A DNA stretch of 38,379 nucleotides, from positions 1-38,379 of the forward strand of contig VAWY01000055.1 in the NCBI GenBank assembly GCA_005888335.1, read 5' to 3'. The position numbers and the translations under genes are program-made. Source of the DNA: Actinomycetota bacterium. GTDB lineage: Bacteria > Actinomycetota > Thermoleophilia > Solirubrobacterales > Solirubrobacteraceae. Shown here piece after piece: positions 23,445 through 37,618 of this stretch (within the stretch, counting starts at the first letter, position 1; every line of letters starts with the position of its first letter). The notes under the pieces were generated by a model that had not been told where the DNA came from, searched no databases, and saw only the letters and a list, made by a program, of their open reading frames with translations.

Positions 23445-24329
23445 TCACCGCCGGCTCGCGATCGCTCGCAGCACGTGGGCGTCGACCGCGGTGGTCTTTC
23501 CCTTGAGCTCGAGCGTCACCGGCGTCGCCTTCGCGTGACGGTCACGGACGTGGTCGAACACCGCGTCGGACATCACGATCTCCCCGGGCCGCGCGCACGC
23601 CTGGAGCCGCGCCGCCGTGTTGACGACGTCCCCGACGGCCGTGAAGTCCTTGACCGCTCCGTCGCCAACGTTGCCGACCCGCGCGACGCCGAAGTTGAGC
23701 CCCACCCCGACGGGGAGCGAGTCCTCGGCGGCGTCGAGCCGGCGCAGGAGCTCCTCGGCGCTGTGCACCATCACCGCGCAGGCGCGCGAACCGTGACCGA
23801 GCAAGGGGAAGCTGGTCAGGAACAGCGCCATGACCTCGTCGCCGACGAGCTTGTCGATGATGGCGTCGTGCTCGCCCATGACCGCTGTGGAAACCGCGTA
23901 GAAGCGATTCAGCGCACGCTCGACCTCCTCGGGTTCGCGGCCCTCGCACCATGCCGTGAACCCGCGGATGTCGGCGAAGAGGACGCCGACCTCCATCTCG
24001 TGCGCGCCAAGCGGCGCCATCTCGAAGCAGCCCATGCAGAAGTTCGGGTTCTTCCGCGAGGGTTTGATGCCGAGGATTCGACCTGCGCCGGCGAACGGGG
24101 CCAGGCAGAAGCGGCACCGCGGCGCTGCGGGCAGCCGTCGGTTGAGCCAGCGGTATCGCGTCATCACTCCCGACGCGCACGTGGCGAAGAAGTAGGTGTC
24201 GTCGCGCGCGCGGCGGCGGGCGTCGACGCGCGGTGACAGCCAGTTGAAGAACCACCGAACGCCGACGACCAGCGCGAGCGCCAAGGCCAGGACGATCGCG
24301 AGGACGGCCAACCAGATCACGGGTGCCAT
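23445..24329 (-). CDS. Membrane-anchored class III adenylate cyclase with a two-CxxC segment
   Basis: A 294-residue protein. One N-terminal transmembrane helix (about 3-29) is followed by a linker with two Cys pairs, CRFC (72-75) and CMGC (98-101), that could bind zinc or a metal cluster. The cyclase catalytic domain follows. Metal-binding Asp residues lie in VLFADIRGF (D120) and VGDEVMALF (D164). K160 in DKLVGDE is the adenine-selecting lysine, and the transition-state Asn/Arg lie in DVVNTAARLQ. So it should make cAMP. The start is ATG 24329, since homology begins at the membrane helix. It is divergent from arsR and convergent with the PrsW gene. Confidence 0.9.
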   Translation of the reverse strand: MAPVIWLAVLAIVLALALALVVGVRWFFNWLSPRVDARRRARDDTYFFATCASGVMTRYRWLNRRLPAAPRCRFCLAPFAGAGRILGIKPSRKNPNFCMGCFEMAPLGAHEMEVGVLFADIRGFTAWCEGREPEEVERALNRFYAVSTAVMGEHDAIIDKLVGDEVMALFLTSFPLLGHGSRACAVMVHSAEELLRRLDAAEDSLPVGVGLNFGVARVGNVGDGAVKDFTAVGDVVNTAARLQACARPGEIVMSDAVFDHVRDRHAKATPVTLELKGKTTAVDAHVLRAIASRR

Positions 24330-24373
24330 TCTCCGCCCAGCGGGGCTTCGGCGGCGCTCGACGGGAGGAACAC

Positions 24374-24403
24374 TTAGGCGATCGCCTAACTGTTTGCTAC
24401 GGT
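24374..24403. promoter_or_regulatory. ArsR operator palindrome and promoter
   Basis: TTAGGCGATCGCCTAA (24374-24389) is a perfect 16-bp palindrome, followed by a -10-like TACGGT (24398-24403) just 7 nt before the arsR GTG. The palindrome therefore overlaps the -35 region, the expected position for autorepression by an ArsR-type regulator. It could also affect the divergent adenylate cyclase, whose start is 45 bp away. Confidence 0.75.
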
Positions 24404-24410
24404 CCCTCGG

Positions 24411-24752
24411 GTGCCCGCCGAAGCCGACGCCACGCTCGACAGGGCGTTCCACGCGCTCGCCGATCCGAGCCGGCGCTCGATCGTCGTCCGGCTCAGCCGG
24501 GGCCCGGCCTCGGTGAGCGAGCTCGCCGAGCCGCTCGCCATGTCGCTCCCGGCCGTCGTGCAGCACATCGACGTCCTGCAGAAGAGCGGCCTCGTCCGCT
24601 CCGAGAAGGTCGGCCGCGTCCGGACATGCCGCCTCGAGCCCGCGCCGATGCGGTCGGTCGAGCAGTGGATCGCGCAGCACCGCGCGACCTGGGAGGGCCG
24701 GCTGGACCGGCTGGGCGACGTCCTGAACGCGACGTATGGAGGGAGCGAATGA
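24411..24752 (+). CDS. ArsR-family winged-helix transcriptional regulator
   Basis: A 113-residue winged-helix protein: HALADPSRRSIVVRLSRGPASVSELAEPL, then a recognition helix region SLPAVVQHIDVLQKSGLV and the RSEKVGRVRTCRL wing. It lacks the Cys metal site of the classical ArsR metal sensors, and it belongs to the type that sits before SRPBCC/AHSA1 genes. The signal is unknown. The GTG start has no SD and is 7 nt from the -10-like element, so it is probably leaderless. It overlaps the downstream SRPBCC gene by 4 bp (ATGA). Confidence 0.9.
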   Translation: MPAEADATLDRAFHALADPSRRSIVVRLSRGPASVSELAEPLAMSLPAVVQHIDVLQKSGLVRSEKVGRVRTCRLEPAPMRSVEQWIAQHRATWEGRLDRLGDVLNATYGGSE

Positions 24753-26393: not shown

Positions 26394-28781
26394 TCAGCGC
26401 TTGGCGGCGAGCCGCCGGCCGAGGGAGTCGAGCGAGCGCGCGCTGACCAGCGTCACGTCGACGCGCGTCACCTTGTTGCGCGCCGAGCGGACCTGGATGT
26501 TCGCGTAGCGGCTGGAGCTCAACCGGATCACCGCCCGCCACGCGCCGGCGCGGCGGTCGAACGCGGTCCGGCCGAGCGCCTTGCGCATGCGCGCCAGCGC
26601 CGTGCCGTAGCCGATGCCGTGGGCGCCCGCGTACTTGCGGCTGCGCACGGTCACCGAGGTCACCCGGCTCTTGGTCAGGCGCAGGACGAGGCCCTTGCCG
26701 TAGCGCCACCGCTGGCGCGAGCCGGAGCGGACGGCGCTGGTCGGGCGGCCGAGGCACGCGACGACGCGCGAGCCGGCCATGCCGATCAGGCCGACCGTCG
26801 CGTGGTGACCCACGCGGGTGATCCACCGGGCGGCCGAGCAGTCCGGCTTCGCGCCGGGCTTGACGGTCGTCTGGGTCTGGGTCTCGACGTGCGAGCCCGA
26901 GCCCGCCGCGGGCTGGGCCGTCGGCGCCTCGAGCGGAGGCGCGGTGTCGCAGGGCGGTCCCGTGAAGTTCGGGAACCGCGCGAGCGCCGCGCCGCCGCCG
27001 CCGCCGGTGGCCGGCACCTCCTTGAAGCAGTCGACCGCGCGGCCGCTGCTGTCCGTGACGACCGAGCCGTCCGCGTTCGTCTGCTCGCCCGCTGCCACGA
27101 ACAGCTGCGGGTGGTCGAACGGCGCCGACTGGTTCTGCACGCGCGGGTCGGTCAGCGCCTCGAGGAACGCGACGAGCGCGTCCTTGTCGGCCGAGCTGAG
27201 CCCGAGCGCGTTGATCGCCTTGTTCGGGTCGGAGAAGTCCCCGCCCCGGCTGTAGAAGTCGACGACCTGGCGCAGGGTGAGCTCACCGCCGTTGTGGAAG
27301 TACGGCGCGGTGAGCGCCACGTTGCGCAGATCCGGCGTCTTGAACGTCCCGGGGACGTTCGTTCCCGCGCCGCCGCTGAGCAGCGACACGGACAGCGGGT
27401 TGCCGAACGGATCGGTTCCGCCGATGCCGGGATCGGTCGCCGTCGGGCGCACACCGATGTTGTGGAAGCCGGTGTCACCCGCTGCCGTCGAGACGCCCCT
27501 GGCCGCGACGTTCGCCACCGTGGCGTCCGTGAAGGCCGGGCCCTCGTGGCAGCTCTCGCAGCCGCCCTTGCCGGCGAAGATGCTCATGCCCTGCTGGGCC
27601 TGAGCGCTCAGCGCGCTGGTGTCGCCGCTGAGGAACTTGTCGACCGGGGTCTGGTCGGAGACCAGGGTCGACTCGTACGCCTGGATGGCCAGGCCCCAGA
27701 ACAGCGGGAAGTTGAACTGCATCAGCGAGTAGCTGTTGCCGTTCGGCGCGGTGACCGAGCTGCTGGAGTTCCACCACTCGGACTGGAACGCCGCCTTGAT
27801 CATGTCCGCGTAGGAGGCGTTCAGGCCGCTCCCGGACGCCGTGACGTCGCTCCCGAGCATGCTGTCGGCGCGGCTGACCTGCTGGGTGCCGAGCGGGCGC
27901 ACGGACAGCAGCTTCTTGCCGATGTCAGACAGCGTCCGCCCGTCGGAGGACATCTCCACCGGGTTGCCTGGAGGGCCGTCGGCCTGCGAGGCCAGCGACG
28001 AGTTCGCGATGCTGACCGCGACCTTGTCGACGCCGCCGGAGGCGTTGACCTGCCCGACGCGCGCGTCGACGTCGCGGTTGCCGAACGGGTCGACGCCGTT
28101 GAATTCGTTCTGCGCGCGGCCGTCCCAGAAGTTGCGGTTGTTGAAGACCGCGTTGATCACGGACGGCGTGTTGCGCCCGGTCGTCCGGCGCACGTTGACC
28201 GACCCGACGTGGAAGTCGGTATCGAGCGCGTCGAAGCTCTGGACGTCGAACGGATCGCCGGCGTTGACGCCGGTGAAGTGCGACGGCAGGACTCCGGCGG
28301 AGCCAACCACGTTGTCGGTGTCAAAGCTCACCGCAGAAGCGGCGTCGTCGGGGTTCACCAGCTGGTGAAGCGGGAAGTCCGCGGCCGTCAGCTGCGCGTT
28401 GGCCGCCTTGCCGCGGAAGTTGAAGCTTCCGCCGCGGGGGTTGATCTGGTTGCGCGAGCGGTTGTCGGCGCCCGCGTTGTAGTGGCACGACGCACAGGCC
28501 TGTCGCCCGTCGCTGCCTGCCTGCATGTCCCAGAACAGGGCCTTGCCGAGCTTCTGGGCTGCGCTGTTGTCCTTGATGAACCGCTGGATGTCGGGCGGGC
28601 TCGGGACAGGCAGGGTGCTCAGCGAGGCGAGAGCCACACCTCCGCCTCCATTGCCGCCCTGCGCGCCCGCCGGCTGCTGCAGCCCACCGACCGCGAGCGC
28701 GGCCAGGCTGGCGCCGGCGAGGACCGCGATCAGCAGTCTGATCCTCCGCGCGGGTCGAGGGTTGAACTTCAGAGCATGCAC
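26394..28781 (-). CDS. Secreted di-heme cytochrome c peroxidase/MauG-like protein with a C-terminal extension
   Basis: A 795-residue exported protein. The GTG start (28781) follows AGAGAGGA (SD) and is followed by a signal peptide (RLLIAVLAGASLAALAVGG, AGAQG). Two c-type heme sites, CASCH (96-100) and CESCH (408-412), lie in a CCP/MauG-type domain whose second half has FKTPDLRNVALTAPYFHNGG and the LRQVVDFYSRGG helix. Family members reduce H2O2 or carry out di-heme oxidations outside the cell. Residues about 630-795 form an unrecognised basic domain (HHATVGLIGMAGSRVVACLGRP, ARMRKALGRTAFDRR) after a Pro/Thr linker. It is the last gene of the operon starting at 32733. Confidence 0.88.
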   Translation of the reverse strand: MHALKFNPRPARRIRLLIAVLAGASLAALAVGGLQQPAGAQGGNGGGGVALASLSTLPVPSPPDIQRFIKDNSAAQKLGKALFWDMQAGSDGRQACASCHYNAGADNRSRNQINPRGGSFNFRGKAANAQLTAADFPLHQLVNPDDAASAVSFDTDNVVGSAGVLPSHFTGVNAGDPFDVQSFDALDTDFHVGSVNVRRTTGRNTPSVINAVFNNRNFWDGRAQNEFNGVDPFGNRDVDARVGQVNASGGVDKVAVSIANSSLASQADGPPGNPVEMSSDGRTLSDIGKKLLSVRPLGTQQVSRADSMLGSDVTASGSGLNASYADMIKAAFQSEWWNSSSSVTAPNGNSYSLMQFNFPLFWGLAIQAYESTLVSDQTPVDKFLSGDTSALSAQAQQGMSIFAGKGGCESCHEGPAFTDATVANVAARGVSTAAGDTGFHNIGVRPTATDPGIGGTDPFGNPLSVSLLSGGAGTNVPGTFKTPDLRNVALTAPYFHNGGELTLRQVVDFYSRGGDFSDPNKAINALGLSSADKDALVAFLEALTDPRVQNQSAPFDHPQLFVAAGEQTNADGSVVTDSSGRAVDCFKEVPATGGGGGAALARFPNFTGPPCDTAPPLEAPTAQPAAGSGSHVETQTQTTVKPGAKPDCSAARWITRVGHHATVGLIGMAGSRVVACLGRPTSAVRSGSRQRWRYGKGLVLRLTKSRVTSVTVRSRKYAGAHGIGYGTALARMRKALGRTAFDRRAGAWRAVIRLSSSRYANIQVRSARNKVTRVDVTLVSARSLDSLGRRLAAKR

Positions 28782-28801
28782 GAAACGTCCTCTCTGGTCG
28801 T

Positions 28802-30976
28802 TTACGCCTCGGGTGCCGCCGAGGCCTCGGTGGTTGGCATGTGCCGGCGGCGCAGCTGATCCAGCTGGGCCGCGGCGTGAAGGGGCATGGGAAGTCGTCG
28901 GGCGGTGCGGGCGCCGAGGTCGAGCACCGCCCACACGAGCGCGACGGTGTCGGCGTCGCCGGGCAGCTCGTCCACCGGACGCTTGGCGGCGGCGATCGGC
29001 GCAAGCGCCCGCTGCATGACGGTGGCCGAGCGCAGGGTCCGGCGGTGCTCGGCCGGGAAGGCGAGGTGCGCGGTGAGCCGCTCGAGGCGGCGCGCCAGGA
29101 CGGCGATGCGGGCCGGCGCGGCCTCGCGGAAGTCGGCGAGGACCGTCTCGAGCTGCTGGCACGCCTCGCTGCCCGAGCGGGCGGTCTCCAGCGCGTTGCC
29201 GAAGCGCGCGCGCAGGTCGCGCCGCTCGGCCTCGCCCAGGCCCGCGCAGGCCTCGCCCAGCGCGCAGCGGACGGAGTGCTGCATCGCCGCGTCGGGCCAC
29301 AGCTCGCCGATCACGCGCCACACGCCCGGGGCGCCGTCGGCCACGACGAGGGCAGGCTGATGCATCCCGCGCTCGACGAGGTCGGCGCCCAGGGCGCCCC
29401 AGGCGGTGGCGCGATCGCGGCTGCCCGTCCGCAAGCCGAGCAGCACGCGCTTGCCGTGTCGCGTGACGCCCCAGGCGCCGAGCAGGTCGTGCTCGGCGGG
29501 GGCGTCGGGCGACGCGGGGAGGCTGACGGCCTCCAGGAACAGATAGACGACGTCGACCTGGGCGAGGGACTGCGTCGCCCAGGCGCGGTGGCGCCGGGTC
29601 ACGTCGCGGCACAGCGCGGCCAGCTCGCCGGTGCCGAGCGGCGGCGCGAACGACGCGGCGACCTCGTCGCCCGGCGTCCCGCGCAGCAGCGAGCACAGGG
29701 CCGTCGCCTCGATCGGGTGCTCGCGCGCGCCGGTCGTGCCCGTGACGCGAGCGGCGAAGCGCAGGTCGGCGGGGTCGGCCGGGCGGCGCCGCGCCGGCGC
29801 GGACCGCACGAGCGGCTCGCGCGGCTCGGCGACGGCAACGGCGACCGCGTCGGCCGCGGGCGCGTCCTCCGCCGGCTCGGCAGGCCGCGCCGCGGCGGGC
29901 GGCACCGCGACCGCGCTGAGGCCGAGCCCCATCAGGCCGGTCAGGCCGACCGCGCCGGCGGCGAGGTCGAGCGGCACCGTGCGGTGGTGCAGGACCGCCA
30001 GTGCGACGAGGTAGACGCCGGCGAAGGCCAGCGACGTGGCTAACGCGAAGACGCGGTAGCCGGCGGTTCGCTCGCCCGAAGCCGAGGGCTGCAGCCGCTT
30101 GACGGTCGTGTCGGCGACGAGGCCGGCGGCCAGCGCGGCGAGCACGCTCCCGGCGAGCGTCAGGTTGCGCAGCGCGGCGCTCAGCGTGCCCGCGAGCGTG
30201 AAGACGAGCGTGACGCTGCCGAACGGCAGGCGGAACCGCCGCACGGCGAGCAGCGCCGGCCCGACGAGGATCAGGTTGGTGACGATGATGCGCGCTATCA
30301 CGACGGTCTGGAGGCTCTGGACGACGGCCTGGTCGGCGCGGACCTTGGGCGGCAGGCTCGCCGGCGAGACGCTCGGCTTCCAGTCGCTGAACGCCGACAT
30401 CCACTGGAAGGCGAAGAGCGCCAGCGCGGTGACAAGCGTCAGCCCGAGCACGACGGGCAGCGCCTGCCGGAAGGACAGCGGGCCGTCGTAGTCGCGCGAG
30501 GCCCACGCGGAGCGCAGCGGGCTGGTCAGCAGCAGGCCGGCCCCGAGGAAGAGCACCAGGTGAGACGGGGCGATGACGCGCGCGATCCCGGACTCGGTGC
30601 TGAGAATCGTGTGCCAGGCGATGTCGCTCATCAGCCCGAAGATCGCGACCGCCAGGCCCGCGAGCCCGAGGCGGTAGCCCACCGGCGTGACCTCCAGGGC
30701 CCAGCGCAGCCGCGCCACGACCGAGCCGCGCGGCCCCGCGTCGACGCGGGCGGGCGGCGCCGGACGGCGCCGCGGCGGCGCGGGCGGGCGCAGCGCGAGG
30801 CGGATCAGCAGCCAGCCGCCGGCGGCGGCGAAGCACGCGTACATCGCCTCGCGGTGGCCGGTGATCGCGCCGATGGTCATGACGCCCGCCAGGAGGGCGA
30901 GCATCGCGCCGTCGAAGGCGAGCAGCGGCTGCTCGGCGCTCGGGCGCTTGGGGGCGGATTCGTGCTCGGTGCTCAC
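28802..30976 (-). CDS. Multi-TM membrane protein fused to an inactive IS256/Mutator-type transposase domain
   Basis: A 724-residue chimera. Residues 20-360 hold about eight or nine hydrophobic segments, including DIAWHTILSTESGIARVIAPSHL. A Pro/Ala/Asp linker (361-420) follows. Residues 424-700 match the IS256-family DDE transposase layout: VDVVYLFLEAVSLP, WGVTRHGKRVLLGL, PALVVADGAPGVWRV, AMQHSVRC, FPAEHRRTLRSATVMQRAL. The first catalytic Asp is Glu482, the second Asp (D547) is kept and the final Glu is Gln655. The CxxH pair is Ser568/Cys571. It should not transpose, and no terminal inverted repeats are seen. GTG 30976 follows GAGGAG. Neighbours are 15 and 20 nt away. Confidence 0.82.
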   Translation of the reverse strand: MSTEHESAPKRPSAEQPLLAFDGAMLALLAGVMTIGAITGHREAMYACFAAAGGWLLIRLALRPPAPPRRRPAPPARVDAGPRGSVVARLRWALEVTPVGYRLGLAGLAVAIFGLMSDIAWHTILSTESGIARVIAPSHLVLFLGAGLLLTSPLRSAWASRDYDGPLSFRQALPVVLGLTLVTALALFAFQWMSAFSDWKPSVSPASLPPKVRADQAVVQSLQTVVIARIIVTNLILVGPALLAVRRFRLPFGSVTLVFTLAGTLSAALRNLTLAGSVLAALAAGLVADTTVKRLQPSASGERTAGYRVFALATSLAFAGVYLVALAVLHHRTVPLDLAAGAVGLTGLMGLGLSAVAVPPAAARPAEPAEDAPAADAVAVAVAEPREPLVRSAPARRRPADPADLRFAARVTGTTGAREHPIEATALCSLLRGTPGDEVAASFAPPLGTGELAALCRDVTRRHRAWATQSLAQVDVVYLFLEAVSLPASPDAPAEHDLLGAWGVTRHGKRVLLGLRTGSRDRATAWGALGADLVERGMHQPALVVADGAPGVWRVIGELWPDAAMQHSVRCALGEACAGLGEAERRDLRARFGNALETARSGSEACQQLETVLADFREAAPARIAVLARRLERLTAHLAFPAEHRRTLRSATVMQRALAPIAAAKRPVDELPGDADTVALVWAVLDLGARTARRLPMPLHAAAQLDQLRRRHMPTTEASAAPEA

Positions 30977-30991
30977 GTGGATCTCCTCGCG

Positions 30992-32185
30992 CTAGCCGGG
31001 GCCGGGGCCGCCGTGCTTGGGGCCCGCCGGCGGCGTCGGCGACGGAGCGGGCGTCGGGGTGGTCACGGGGGTCGGGCCGGCGGTCGGCGTGTTCACGGGG
31101 TCGGCCGGCTTCGTCGCCGGGGTAGGAGCGGCGCTCGGGCTGTTGGCGACCGTCGTCGTCGTGGTGGTCGTGATGACCGTCGGCGCCGCGGCCGGAGCGC
31201 CGGGGACGACCGCAGGTCGCCACGCCGGCCGGCGCCGATGACGGCGGACGGGCGTCGTCGGCGCCGGCCGTGCCGCGGGACGGCGGCGGTGGACGACGAC
31301 CCGCGGGCTCGGGGCGACGCGCCGCGCGTGGACGCGTTCGGCGCGAACGCGCGCGTGGTGCGACGCAGTGACGCGGCGCGCGCGAGGAGCGGCGGTGGCC
31401 ACGCGGCGGGCCGCCCGGTGGCGCGGGGTCGCCGCCGCGCGGGAGGCGCTCGACGACGGGCGCGCGGCAGCGCGGGCGTGGACGGCGGGCGCAGGAGCGC
31501 GTTCCCGCGCGGGCGCGGGCGCCTCGGCCTGCGCCTTCGGGCGGGCGGCGACGGCGGCAGAGCTCACGCGGTCGGCGGGCTCGCGCGGCGACGTCCCGCC
31601 GAAGGCGACGAAGGCGATGGCCGCCGCGCCGGCCGCCGCCAGGGCCGCGATCGCGATCCGGCGGTCGAAGCCGACCATGCCGGTGACGGCGCGGAGCGTG
31701 ATCGCGCGCCCGACCACCGCGCGCACCGCGACGACGAAGACGATCGCGGCGCCGGCGACGACCAGGAGGTTGAACGGGGGAGCGAGCGCCTCGCCGGCCG
31801 GCCGCGCTCCCGTGGTGCGGGCGATCGCGTCGCCGACCACGCCGACGGCGGCGATCGCCAGCCCGACCAGGATCATCCCGAGCCCCGGCGGACCCGCGGC
31901 CACGCGGCGGCCGCCGCGCCCGCCTCGCGGCGCGAGCATCAGCCGCAGTCGCTCGTTGCGCGTGATCGTCCAGATCGCGCACGCGTTGAACCCGGCGTAG
32001 AGCGGGATGTGCCAGGGCGTGAAGAACGAGCCGTCCTGGCCGTTGGCGAGGTAGAGGTGGTGCCAGCCGTCGAGGAACAGGCCGGCGATCAGCAGCCCGC
32101 CCGCCAGGACGGCGATCAGGTCATCCCGCCACGCCGTCCGCACCGGCGCGTCCGCGCCGGATGACCCCCCAGGAGCGCCGCTCAC
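30992..32185 (-). CDS. Multi-TM membrane protein with long Ala/Arg/Pro/Thr-rich tail
   Basis: Unrecognised function. 397 residues. Five hydrophobic segments fill about residues 20-195, with His residues close to the membrane: LFLDGWHHLYLANGQDG and SFFTPWHIPLYAGFNA. The first is reminiscent of DIAWHTILSTESG in the following fusion protein, so the two may share a membrane domain. Residues 200-397 are low-complexity: Ala/Pro/Arg/His-rich, then a run of seven threonines and Pro/Thr/Gly repeats ending GPKHGGPGPG, likely disordered or cell-wall spanning. The GTG start overlaps the Usp-like stop by 4 bp, and the stop is 15 nt before the fusion gene. Confidence 0.72.
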   Translation of the reverse strand: MSGAPGGSSGADAPVRTAWRDDLIAVLAGGLLIAGLFLDGWHHLYLANGQDGSFFTPWHIPLYAGFNACAIWTITRNERLRLMLAPRGGRGGRRVAAGPPGLGMILVGLAIAAVGVVGDAIARTTGARPAGEALAPPFNLLVVAGAAIVFVVAVRAVVGRAITLRAVTGMVGFDRRIAIAALAAAGAAAIAFVAFGGTSPREPADRVSSAAVAARPKAQAEAPAPARERAPAPAVHARAAARPSSSASRAAATPRHRAARRVATAAPRARRVTASHHARVRAERVHARRVAPSPRVVVHRRRPAARPAPTTPVRRHRRRPAWRPAVVPGAPAAAPTVITTTTTTTVANSPSAAPTPATKPADPVNTPTAGPTPVTTPTPAPSPTPPAGPKHGGPGPG

Positions 32186-32733
32186 TGTCCTGTGCCCCTG
32201 GCGGGCGCAGCGGCTTCGTCGACGCCGAGCACCCGGGCGGCGCCCTGGCCGTCGAGGTACACCGACCGCCGGCCGCCGTGCCGGCGCTCGTCGGCGCGGT
32301 CGACCAGTCGCGTCTGCGAGCCCACGACGTGCGTGACGGGCAGCCCGGTCGCCGCGCCGACGCGGTGCGGCAGGCTCAGGCGCAGCCAGCGGCTCACGTG
32401 CCGCGGCATCGTGGAGACGACGACCTCGTCGTACGTGTCGAAGTGGATCGCGTCCATGACGGCCGCGAGCGGGTCCGGATCGCCGAGGCGGGCGCTCGCC
32501 ACGTCGAGGCCGGCGGCGCGGTAGCGCTCGACGGCCGCGTCCAGGTAGCGCTCGGCGTCGATCCCGCCGGAGTACATGTCGGCCAGCCACGCCCAGCCGT
32601 GGGGGGTGGCGGGGACCAGCAGGGTGAAGGTCGCCGGGGACTTGGCTGCGCGGCGGGTGAGAAGGTCGACGAGCTCCGGACAGGCAGCTGTCCGGGTGGC
32701 GACGGTCAGGACCTTGGCAGGCTGGGGGCGCAT
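32182..32733 (-). CDS. Universal stress protein (UspA)-like fold protein
   Basis: A 183-residue protein. It begins KVLTVATRTAACPELVDLL and contains TFTLLVPATPHGW, a long helix (IDAERYLDAAVERYRAAGLDV), and YDEVVVSTMPRHVSRWLRLSLPHRV followed by TGLPVTHVVG. This is the alternating Usp/HUP-like fold. The classical ATP motif (G2xG9GS) is not clear, so nucleotide binding is doubtful. It is the first gene of the four-gene minus-strand operon and overlaps the next gene by GTGA. ATG 32733 is supported by where homology begins; the SD is weak. Confidence 0.7.
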   Translation of the reverse strand: MRPQPAKVLTVATRTAACPELVDLLTRRAAKSPATFTLLVPATPHGWAWLADMYSGGIDAERYLDAAVERYRAAGLDVASARLGDPDPLAAVMDAIHFDTYDEVVVSTMPRHVSRWLRLSLPHRVGAATGLPVTHVVGSQTRLVDRADERRHGGRRSVYLDGQGAARVLGVDEAAAPARGTGQ

Positions 32734-34321: not shown

Positions 34322-37300
34322 ATGCTGCTGAACCCGCGCCGTCTGGCCCTGCTCCTCCTCCCGCTCGCCCTCGCCGCCCTCGCGGCGTGGCTCCTGATCT
34401 CCCGCGGCGCGAGCACGCCGTCGCTCGGCGAGCGCATCGCCGCCCAGCGCGCCGTGCTCGGCCGCTGCCTGCAGGAGCGCGCGCGCCACGCCGACCGCGT
34501 CCAGGACGGAGGCGAGCGCGAGTGCCCGGGCGCGCCGGAGTCCCCCGAGGACCTGGCGAAGCTCAACGACTCGGTGACCGCGCGCCTGGGCAGCAGCGAC
34601 TCGCGGCTGGCGCTGAGCCGGGCGCTGCGCCAGCGCGACCGTCTCGCCGCGCACGCCGCCCAGGCCAACGTCCCCGGCACCGGCGGCACCTGGGAGCCCT
34701 ACGGCAAGGGCTCCCTGCGCTTCGACGACCCCGACTACCCGGCCTCGTACGGCGACGGGTTCGGCCGCGTCAACGGCCGCGTCAACGACCTGCTCTACGT
34801 GCCGCAGACGAAGAAGCTCTACGCGGCCGTCGCCCAGGGCGGCGTCTGGGAGTCGACCGACCAGGCCAAGACGTGGCGGCCGATCGGCGACACGCTGCCG
34901 ATCGGTTCGACCGGCGCCGTCGGCTGGACGCCGGCCGACGGCGGGACGCTGATCGTGGCCACCGGCGATCACGCCTTCTCCAACGACTACGCGGGCGTCG
35001 GCGTCTACTGGACCGGCGACGACGGCGTCACGTGGGTCAAGGCCAAGGGGGTGCCCGACGGGGCGCTGTCGTACCGGGTCGCGGTGGATCCGACCAACCC
35101 GCAGATCGTCTACGTGGCCACCGGGCTCGGCCTGTTTCGCTCGACCGACGCCGGCCGCTCGTTCACCAACGTCAACCTGCCGACCGGCGACTGCGCGGGC
35201 GACTCGTTCAGGCCCAACTGCTTTTTGGCCAACATCGTCACCGACGTGGTCGTGCAGCCCAAGGACTCGTTCGGCCACAGCGGCGGCGCCGTCCTGGCCG
35301 CGGTCGGCTGGCGCTCCGGCCAGCGCCTGAACTTCGCCGGCAAGCCGGAGTCGCCCAACAACGGCGCCTACCGTTCGGACACCGGCGCGCCCGGGACGTT
35401 CACCAAGGTGCCCGACAGCGCCGGCTTCACGCCGACCGCCAAGGCGGGGCGCGCCGAGTTCGGCGTCGCCGACGGCCCCGGCCAGAACGCCAACTACGTC
35501 TACGCGATGGTCCAGGACGCGCAGGCGTTCGCCAAGCAGGTCGGCGGCGAGAACGACATCCCGCTGGTCGGTACGCCGTCGGTCCTCGACGGCATCTACG
35601 TCTCCAGCGACTTCGGCAAGACGTGGACGCAGATGGCCGGGCGCGACGACTTCTTCCTGCCCACCAACGGCTCGACGCTCTCGCAGCTGACGGCGCTTGG
35701 CATCGGGCCCGGCTACCAGGTGACCTACAACCAGTGGATCAAGCCCGATCCGACGCGCCAGTCGGGCGGCGTGCCGACCCGCCTGCTGTTCGGCATGGAG
35801 GAGGTCTGGACGAGCGCCATCCCCGGCCAGCCGCAGAACGGCAAGTCGACGTTCCGGACGTTCGGGCAGTACACGGCCAACGGCAGCGCCTGCCTGGTCG
35901 TCCCCGAGGTGTGCGGCACCAAGCAGCAGGCGACGCCGACCAACACGACGACCCACCCCGACCAGCACGGCGAGGCGATCATCCCCGACGGCCAGGGGGG
36001 CCTGACGCTGGTCGTCGGCAACGATGGCGGCGTCTACGCCCAGCACGCGGCGTCCGGCGAGGAGTTCGACCAGAGCCGCTGGGGCCTGGGCAACAACGAC
36101 GGCTTCTACACGCTGCTGCCCTACGGGGTGGCGGTCGCCAAGGACGGCACGGCCTACGCCGGACTGCAGGACAACGGCCAGCTGAAGATCGACCCTGACG
36201 GCACGCAGCGCTCGGTCTACGTCGGCGACGGGACGTTCGCGATGGTCGACCCCGACAACTCGCAGGTCAACTACGACGAGCTGCCCAACGCGGGGATCAA
36301 CGTCTCGACGGACGGCGGCAAGTCGTACTCGTCGATCGACCCCAACCTGACCAACCCCGACTTCGTGGCGCCGATGGTCATGGACCCCGGCGACGCGAAG
36401 CACCTGATGGTGGTCGGCCGCGAGGTCAAGGAGTCGACGTTCGGGCCGGACACCACGACGCCGTGCGACCCCAACGACCCGACCCAGGCGCCGTGCGACA
36501 ACTCGACGTCCTGGACCACGGTCTACGACCTGGGCACGCGCCAGCACCCGGGTGACCCGAACGCCGGGCGCCCGGATCCCAGCGAGGCCGACCCGCAGAA
36601 CCACGGCACGGCCGCGCAGGTCATCGGCGACGACGCCTACGTCGGCTTCTGCGGCTCGTGCGACCCGGTCAAGCTCAAGCAGCGCTTCCACAACGGGGTC
36701 GCCACGAACGTCGGCGGCGCCAAGCCGGCCAAGCGGATGACCGGAGACGGCTGGCACATCGCGGCGGCCGCGGGGCTGCCCGACCGCATCATCACCTCGG
36801 TGACGATGGACCCGGGCGACCACCGGACGGTCTACGTCACGCTCGGCGCGAGCGCGGCGCGCTACTGGGCGCCGCTGGGCTCGCAGGGCGAGGACGCCTC
36901 CGACGCGGCGGGCGGCTTCGTCTACAAGTCGACCGACGCCGGCGCGAGCTTCCGCGACATCTCCGGCGACCTGCCCAAGGCACAGGCGACGTGGTCGATC
37001 GTGCGCAACGGGCAGCTCATCGTGGCCACGTCGGTCGGCATCTTCGCCTCGCGCGGCACGGACGGCGGCGAGTACGTGCCGCTGGGCAGCGGCCTGCCGC
37101 CGACGGCGACCTACTCGATGACGCTCAAGCCGGGCGACCCCGACACGCTCGTGGCGGCGACCTTCGGGCGCGGCGTCTACCGCTACCACTTCGCCGATCC
37201 GCACGGGGCGTCGAGCCGGCCCGGGCCGGGCTGTCGCGACACCTCGGGCCCGACGTCGCGGTTCAAGCGCACGGCGCGGACCGCCTCGGCGCGCCGGCTG

Positions 37301-37618
37301 CGGCTCAGCGGGACGACCACCGACCGCGGGTGCGGCGCGAGCCGTCGCGGCACGGTGCGGCGGGTGCGCCTCGCGATCGCCCGCCGCACCGGCAAGCGCT
37401 GCCGGTCCCTGCTGCCGTCGGGGCGCCTGGCGCGCCGCGCCGTGAGCTGCCGGCGGACCGCCTACGTCAACGCCAGGGGCACGACGCGCTGGTCGTTCAC
37501 CGCGCGCCGGCGCCTGCCGCGCGGGCGCTACGAGATCTGGGTCCGCGCGATCGACGCGGCGGGCAACGTCGAGCGCAAGAACCGCAAGCGCAACTTCACG
37601 CGGCTCGTGCTTCGCTGA
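34322..37618 (+). CDS. Large secreted BNR/sortilin-type beta-propeller protein
   Basis: A 1098-residue exported protein. An N-terminal membrane helix/signal (about 6-26) is followed by an extracellular helical region and a propeller made of repeats with Asp-box (BNR) motifs: STDQAKTW, TGDDGVTW, STDAGRSF, SSDFGKTW, STDGGKSY and STDAGASF. These fit a sortilin/VPS10 or glycosidase-type propeller. No sialidase catalytic set can be assigned, so binding is as likely as catalysis. The last 130 residues are a basic beta-sandwich (YEIWVRAIDAAGNVE), typical of extracellular domains of this lineage. Paired Cys (CDPNDPTQAPCD, CGSCDP) suit an exported protein. The 3' end overlaps ddl convergently by 23 bp. 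Confidence 0.82.
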   Translation: MLLNPRRLALLLLPLALAALAAWLLISRGASTPSLGERIAAQRAVLGRCLQERARHADRVQDGGERECPGAPESPEDLAKLNDSVTARLGSSDSRLALSRALRQRDRLAAHAAQANVPGTGGTWEPYGKGSLRFDDPDYPASYGDGFGRVNGRVNDLLYVPQTKKLYAAVAQGGVWESTDQAKTWRPIGDTLPIGSTGAVGWTPADGGTLIVATGDHAFSNDYAGVGVYWTGDDGVTWVKAKGVPDGALSYRVAVDPTNPQIVYVATGLGLFRSTDAGRSFTNVNLPTGDCAGDSFRPNCFLANIVTDVVVQPKDSFGHSGGAVLAAVGWRSGQRLNFAGKPESPNNGAYRSDTGAPGTFTKVPDSAGFTPTAKAGRAEFGVADGPGQNANYVYAMVQDAQAFAKQVGGENDIPLVGTPSVLDGIYVSSDFGKTWTQMAGRDDFFLPTNGSTLSQLTALGIGPGYQVTYNQWIKPDPTRQSGGVPTRLLFGMEEVWTSAIPGQPQNGKSTFRTFGQYTANGSACLVVPEVCGTKQQATPTNTTTHPDQHGEAIIPDGQGGLTLVVGNDGGVYAQHAASGEEFDQSRWGLGNNDGFYTLLPYGVAVAKDGTAYAGLQDNGQLKIDPDGTQRSVYVGDGTFAMVDPDNSQVNYDELPNAGINVSTDGGKSYSSIDPNLTNPDFVAPMVMDPGDAKHLMVVGREVKESTFGPDTTTPCDPNDPTQAPCDNSTSWTTVYDLGTRQHPGDPNAGRPDPSEADPQNHGTAAQVIGDDAYVGFCGSCDPVKLKQRFHNGVATNVGGAKPAKRMTGDGWHIAAAAGLPDRIITSVTMDPGDHRTVYVTLGASAARYWAPLGSQGEDASDAAGGFVYKSTDAGASFRDISGDLPKAQATWSIVRNGQLIVATSVGIFASRGTDGGEYVPLGSGLPPTATYSMTLKPGDPDTLVAATFGRGVYRYHFADPHGASSRPGPGCRDTSGPTSRFKRTARTASARRLRLSGTTTDRGCGASRRGTVRRVRLAIARRTGKRCRSLLPSGRLARRAVSCRRTAYVNARGTTRWSFTARRRLPRGRYEIWVRAIDAAGNVERKNRKRNFTRLVLR

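Follow-up and report, generated by a model that had tools for sequence, protein, structure and literature searches.

The window, by which we mean the whole stretch of 38,379 nucleotides analysed here (contig VAWY01000055.1 of assembly GCA_005888335.1, from an actinobacterium of the Solirubrobacteraceae), contains three closely spaced genes on the reverse strand, the middle one of which joins a membrane protein and a transposase-derived domain in one reading frame. This fused gene, hereafter TMcat (28802..30976, 724 amino acids, GTG start), is preceded after a gap of 15 nt by a gene encoding a 397-amino-acid protein related to the first part of the family to which the TMcat membrane half belongs (upstream partner, UP; 30992..32185), and followed after 20 nt by a gene encoding a di-heme cytochrome c peroxidase/MauG-type protein of 795 amino acids (26394..28781). 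These gaps agree with the operon spacing of 15-20 nt reported in an earlier reading of the same DNA (the original prediction). From its N-terminus, TMcat comprises a membrane half with ten predicted transmembrane (TM) helices (residues 20-357, 29906..30919), a Pro/Ala/Glu-rich linker modelled with low confidence (residues 363-394, 29795..29890, predicted local distance difference test below 50), a degenerate helix-turn-helix (HTH)-like region (residues 402-470, 29567..29773) and an RNase H-like domain with a helical insertion (residues 471-712, 28841..29566). The gene is documented by its open reading frame (ORF), by profile matches, by an AlphaFold2 model and by 14 fused homologues.

Residues 452-685 of TMcat match positions 98-335 of the 338 in the NCBIfam IS256 transposase model (E 2.2e-30, the 105.8 bits falling short of the curated cut-off of 150), and positions 137-369 of the 379 in Pfam Transposase_mut are matched above the cut-off (E 2.2e-18; 66.7 bits vs 21). 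Both matches are far beyond chance. The GC content at third codon positions (GC3) is 0.94-0.99 in all four segments of TMcat (residues 1-715), an evenness that fits a single coding frame. P0001, a protein 99% identical to TMcat and encoded on a separate contig of 11,233 bp, has the same junction, and so do 14 further homologues; misassembly of this contig consequently does not account for the junction. Separate contigs are listed for P0001 and for all of these homologues but one (P0009, leaving 13 of 14), in three kinds of source. The in-frame fusion behind a membrane domain is thus real.

The reference for the IS256 (Mutator-type) family is the ISCth4 transposase TnpA (PDB 6xg8, 6xgw, 6xgx), described in PMC7780238. 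TMcat residues 420-712 align structurally with ISCth4 114-406, HTH domain included, and the RNase H-like fold with the helical insertion domain of these transposases is present. The homologous part spans residues ~402-712, so that the family assigned by the original prediction stands while the extent it gave (424-700) was too short and left out the HTH domain. The best-fitting alignments begin at ISCth4 residue 114, with one looser row (root-mean-square deviation 6.8) beginning at 61; the dimerization (1-56) and NDB (56-108) domains, as delimited in PMC7780238, have no counterpart in TMcat. The Asp-Asp-Glu (DDE) catalytic set of ISCth4 (D175, D241, E348) corresponds to E482, D547 and Q655 in TMcat and is complete in none of the 15 fused sequences. 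Position 482 is Glu and position 547 Asp in all 15, while the third acid position, 655, varies (Gln in 10, Asp in 2, Glu in 2, His in 1). The C/DxxH motif of the insertion domain has become Ser568/Cys571, and C and H occur together in a single fused sequence (P0005); Gln566 and His644 are also kept. The free transposases nearest to the fused set, five in number, all have Asp at the first two acid positions, and four have Glu at the third (the end of the fifth, L119, looks like another reading frame). The three substitutions had been read correctly from the start, without mention of the kept and invariant Asp547.

Our protein search returned 27 proteins, namely P0001, 14 fused homologues (P0002-P0015; 51-84% identity in the domain) and 12 free transposases with lengths of 420-442 amino acids. 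P0008 and P0014 are truncated on the N-terminal side but retain membrane helices that lead into the domain; P0006 is without the first helix. The frame is open through the domain in all 15 rows, at a divergence of up to ~45%. A tree built from 48 rows, L147 and L119 among them, places its 14 fused members (the window and 13 homologues, P0008 being left out) on one side of a branch with 100/100 support and a stem of 1.07 changes per site; grouped with them (98/89) are five free transposases whose genomes belong to relatives of the window's lineage. The tree was midpoint-rooted for drawing only, long branches meet elsewhere in it, which calls for caution, and the fused stem is itself long. In this tree, the fusion has a single origin.

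The genome of one relative, G038, contains a 1,440-bp IS256 element (L151 878-2317, L152 and L153) in three copies 99.9-100% identical, with long imperfect inverted ends. This element looks recently active. The ends of this nearest insertion sequence (IS) were not found in positions 28000-31500 of the window, the best match having 9 mismatches of 26, for which a chance level was not computed; other inverted repeats are plentiful in this GC-rich stretch (97 pairs, not judged singly). Mean pairwise identity (78 pairs from 13 rows) is 0.667 in the catalytic and insertion regions, 0.592 in the membrane half, 0.512 in the HTH-like region (398-470) and 0.451 in the linker (365-397). Given the single origin, the lost DDE set, a conservation stronger than that of the membrane half and the lack of recognisable ends of the nearest IS, TMcat almost certainly carries a domesticated, dead transposase domain, in line with the loss of catalysis originally proposed. 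Lacking the catalytic set, the domain would be unable to transpose.

Features that face DNA in the transposases have changed as well. Over residues 402-710, the net charge of the fused sequences ranges from -13 to +6 (mean -5.1), against +3 to +25 (mean +11.5) in 32 free transposases (12 from the protein search and 20 of 22 from genomes, after excluding the divergent L147 and L119 with its odd end; P0008 is counted among the fused). All 15 fused sequences lack the basic arm that the nearest free relatives have behind the third acid (RRRTK-like), and 8 of them have a deletion there. The position aligned to ISCth4 Lys148 is Arg in 28 of the 32 free transposases, while in fused sequences it is never Arg and is Lys in 2/15; Ser435, kept in 32/32 free rows, is altered in 8/15 fused ones. 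These HTH contact positions were mapped to ISCth4 numbering by hand, with a three-residue offset. With identity at 0.667 in the core while charge, arm and HTH positions have changed, constraint acts on the core and not on the DNA-facing features. The domain has probably lost DNA binding.

Searching with the membrane half alone retrieved P0031, a protein of 348 amino acids without the transposase part, which aligns both with TMcat 94-328 (41%) and with UP 15-140 (37%); UP and TMcat thus derive from one membrane family. In genome G410 (locus L126), a single membrane gene matches both UP and TMcat and is directly followed by a peroxidase gene. Other relatives of the membrane half occur in Deinococcus (WP_225523738.1, WP_012695295.1), Nonomuraea and Paenibacillus (4 records); from the phylum of G410, 396 genomes were sampled, and 19, with G410 among them, have a relative. 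Identity between the TM half and single-chain relatives is roughly 26-44%. Two motif pairs mark the single-chain family: pair 1 consists of D-G-W-A-H and F-F-T-P-W-H, pair 2 of D-x-x-W-H and S-P-x-H. A conserved Trp is present in these membrane motifs. Beside L126, we read the motifs in 24 rows (L156-L179, 23 distinct genes). Of the 21 rows that extend to pair 1, 20 preserve its Asp and its two His, L176 having lost them, and the Asp, Trp and both His of pair 2 are preserved in 24/24. UP has kept pair 1 (LDGWHH, FFTPWH) and shows DAIART and APPFNL at pair 2, whereas TMcat lacks pair 1 and has kept pair 2 (DIAWHT, IAPSHL; D118, W121, H122, P137 and H139), which is invariant across 17 aligned sequences of the membrane half. 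Such complementary loss, expected after duplication, points to a UP-TMcat unit, and we consider it fairly likely that both proteins form one membrane unit. The original prediction had missed this division of an ancestral membrane protein between the two genes.

Predicted helices 3 and 4 carry the motif residues at their ends, which by the topology suggested for TMcat would be near the outer face, on the side of an exported di-heme peroxidase; a metal or redox role of these residues is putative. The even number of predicted TM helices and an Arg-rich loop (63-98) would in turn place the transposase-derived domain in the cytosol. UP ends in a C-terminal tail of ~197 residues rich in Ala, Pro, Arg and Thr. 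P0031, UP and the TM half match no Pfam or NCBIfam model above its cut-off, a PDB profile search with the 17-sequence membrane alignment returned nothing for the membrane half, and Foldseek with the TM model gave nothing significant; a resemblance to S-components and to AMO/pMMO is not used in the argument. Comparison of seven TM loci from large genomes (L127-L133) with the window genes revealed no UP-TM-peroxidase set, and the gene layouts of five of them no informative common neighbour. Four plasmid contexts were also viewed, two of them with annotation. P0028 is without the transposase domain and shows an apparent frame change near its end, P0029 and P0030 are short, and L123_4982 is a wrong-frame ORF and was ignored.

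The downstream protein matches Pfam CCP_MauG (E 9.8e-24; 85.1 bits vs a cut-off of 25.6), contains two CXXCH motifs (96 and 408) and has relatives in the PDB; its hydrophobic N-terminus suggests export. It scores below the cut-offs of the MbnH-family di-heme model TIGR04039 (118 bits vs 363) and of the MauG model TIGR03791 (98 vs 444). MauG and MbnH act on Trp residues of partner proteins. The peroxidase that follows the single membrane gene of G410 is 52% identical to that of the window. At E <= 1e-60, such peroxidases were found in one of 232 genomes in the order of G004 (G206) and, among 129 from the order of G410, in G410 alone. That the UP-TMcat unit works with the peroxidase is, by a narrow margin, what we expect.

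On balance, we favour, if only slightly, an explanation in which the split membrane unit serves the peroxidase and the captured dead transposase domain acts as a cytosolic protein-binding module. An ancestral single-chain membrane protein with both motif pairs, as in P0031 and L126, would have given rise to two genes, the upstream one retaining pair 1 and the middle one pair 2, whose products would jointly form one membrane unit serving the di-heme peroxidase, with the latter acting on the outer face. A single event in an ancestor of the clade would have joined the frame of an IS256 transposase, minus its first ~100 residues, to the middle gene at its C-terminal end. The captured domain would then have given up catalysis together with most or all of its affinity for DNA, and may now bind a protein partner as a folded module in the cytosol, either stabilising or assembling the complex or relaying its state to the cytosol.

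Several observations weigh against this explanation. Beyond the window, only L126 directly shows a membrane gene paired with a peroxidase gene; no peroxidase relative was found in the 24 loci L156-L179 (fetched with ~1.5 kb on each side), and the G206 peroxidase has no membrane gene before it, its contig ending just after the peroxidase. A contig of the same size ties a peroxidase to the fused gene in at least two of the 13 homologues with a contig, among 120 listed of 5,778 peroxidases. UP was observed beside the fused gene in the window only, the neighbours of other fused lineages not being seen. The full-length AlphaFold2 model (predicted template modelling score 0.48) does not predict the relative placement of the two halves. 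Finally, E482 and D547 are invariant, though pure scaffolding needs neither, and four of the 15 fused domains are positively charged (window +3, P0002 +6, P0003 +3, P0005 +2), that of the window equalling the lowest free transposase.

Four other explanations were weighed. The active site may have been repurposed, with Glu482 and Asp547 binding a metal or a nucleotide in a cytosolic sensor, or in a hydrolase with a changed substrate, that is coupled to the membrane unit. Both residues are fixed while the third acid varies, Gln566 and His644 are kept, and a fixed change from Asp to Glu suggests selection at position 482; yet no third conserved acid stands at the family position, the C-H pair is lost in 14/15 and the conserved residues may simply be structural. 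We regard such a site as unlikely though conceivable, and doubt the fuller version in which the rebuilt site would act as sensor or gate for a membrane redox unit divided into two subunits and operating together with the peroxidase; a scaffold is, with some confidence, preferred over a rebuilt site. If true, a rebuilt site would mean that an enzyme of a mobile element had become a domain for signalling or enzymatic work at the membrane. Membrane-tethered DNA binding, by which the domain would anchor DNA or regulate transcription from the membrane, was one of two uses originally suggested. It would agree with the kept HTH-like region and RNase H-like fold, with the predicted cytosolic location and with the four positive domains, but the dimerization and NDB domains are absent, conservation among the folded parts is lowest in the HTH-like one, the Lys148-aligned position has lost its Arg, mean charge has shifted and the basic arm is gone. 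Such tethered DNA binding is consequently improbable, and the other suggested use, a structural role, fits better.

A domain merely tolerated as the functionless by-product of an old fusion would be consistent with the long stem branch and with the lack of a known function, but frames remain open in all 15 sequences despite their divergence and the domain is conserved above the membrane half while the linker drops to 0.45, making a passenger very unlikely. Near-identical IS256 copies in a related genome could bring to mind a recent insertion at the junction, or an artefact; against this, the fusion recurs on the separate contigs of P0001 and 13/14 homologues from three kinds of source, GC3 is even and, with the limit on chance level given above, the ends of the nearest IS were not seen near TMcat. 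Such an origin is scarcely conceivable. A scaffolding, protein-binding module remains our preferred reading.

Domesticated transposases and fusions of host proteins with transposases are already known. To our knowledge, the domesticated ones mostly keep DNA cutting or binding. TnpA-REP is a Y1 HuH enzyme with a fold different from that of the TMcat domain. TnpA-REP/RAYT proteins resemble TMcat in being transposases kept by the host outside an IS, but they reportedly may mobilise REP DNA, a role tied to DNA, whereas the TMcat domain has lost catalysis and is part of a membrane protein. In eukaryotes, F-box genes captured the HTH of a Tc1/Mariner transposase (PMC12062965); there too a host gene captured a transposase domain, although what was taken was an HTH and not, as here, a dead catalytic domain on a bacterial polytopic membrane protein. 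Like ISCth4 TnpA, TMcat has an HTH region, the RNase H-like fold with helical insertion and the second catalytic Asp; unlike it, TMcat is without the DDE set and an intact C-H pair, shows no recognisable ends of the nearest IS within 28000-31500, carries a membrane half in place of the dimerization and NDB domains and has a lower net charge. The P0031-like family shares pair 2 with TMcat, but its members are single chains, nearly always with both pairs, and none was seen with a transposase domain. As the original prediction supposed, the open literature searched (PMC) yielded no account of a bacterial polytopic membrane protein that carries a dead IS transposase domain, a weak absence given that subscription papers fall mostly outside it. 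With its catalytic set gone and its DNA-facing features largely gone, yet with a fold more constrained than its membrane domain, TMcat gives a bacterial example in which the reuse of a transposase fold as a protein module at the membrane can be tested, and the motif pairs split over neighbouring genes give a handle on an uncharacterised membrane family of Actinomycetota, Deinococcus and Paenibacillus.

The fused clade, an actinobacterial lineage without cultured members, is known here from the window and from protein clusters only (sources ena, jgi or src), which we take to be mostly metagenomic. Profile scans for the fusion gave 168 pattern matches in genome contigs, with no relative by tblastn, and 47 in viral contigs, again with no relative. 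No fusion was read in overlapping whole-genome sets of 5, 201, 146, 232, 399 and 129 genomes, scoring five (201 set), seven (146), four (232), two (399) and eight (129) candidates per genome. One candidate, G155:C260 (query 259-567, one stop), resembled a span of both parts but was rejected: the profile places an overlapping match at 403-582, and we read the hit as a stretched alignment to a free transposase.

The window itself is a chromosomal stretch close to replication genes, as gyrase A, gyrase B and the DNA polymerase III beta subunit were identified by Pfam; other genes, assigned by eye, are presumably dnaA, recF, rnpA and yidC. The GTG start of UP overlaps the preceding stop by four bases (GTGA), the preceding gene being a small ORF (32182-32733) that likely belongs to the same operon. 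Farther upstream, 34322-37618 encodes a protein of 1098 amino acids with a Sortilin-Vps10 match, a BNR repeat and a bacterial Ig-like end, and on the other side of the peroxidase gene an ORF at 23445-24680 contains an adenylate/guanylate cyclase catalytic domain (Pfam E 5e-16).
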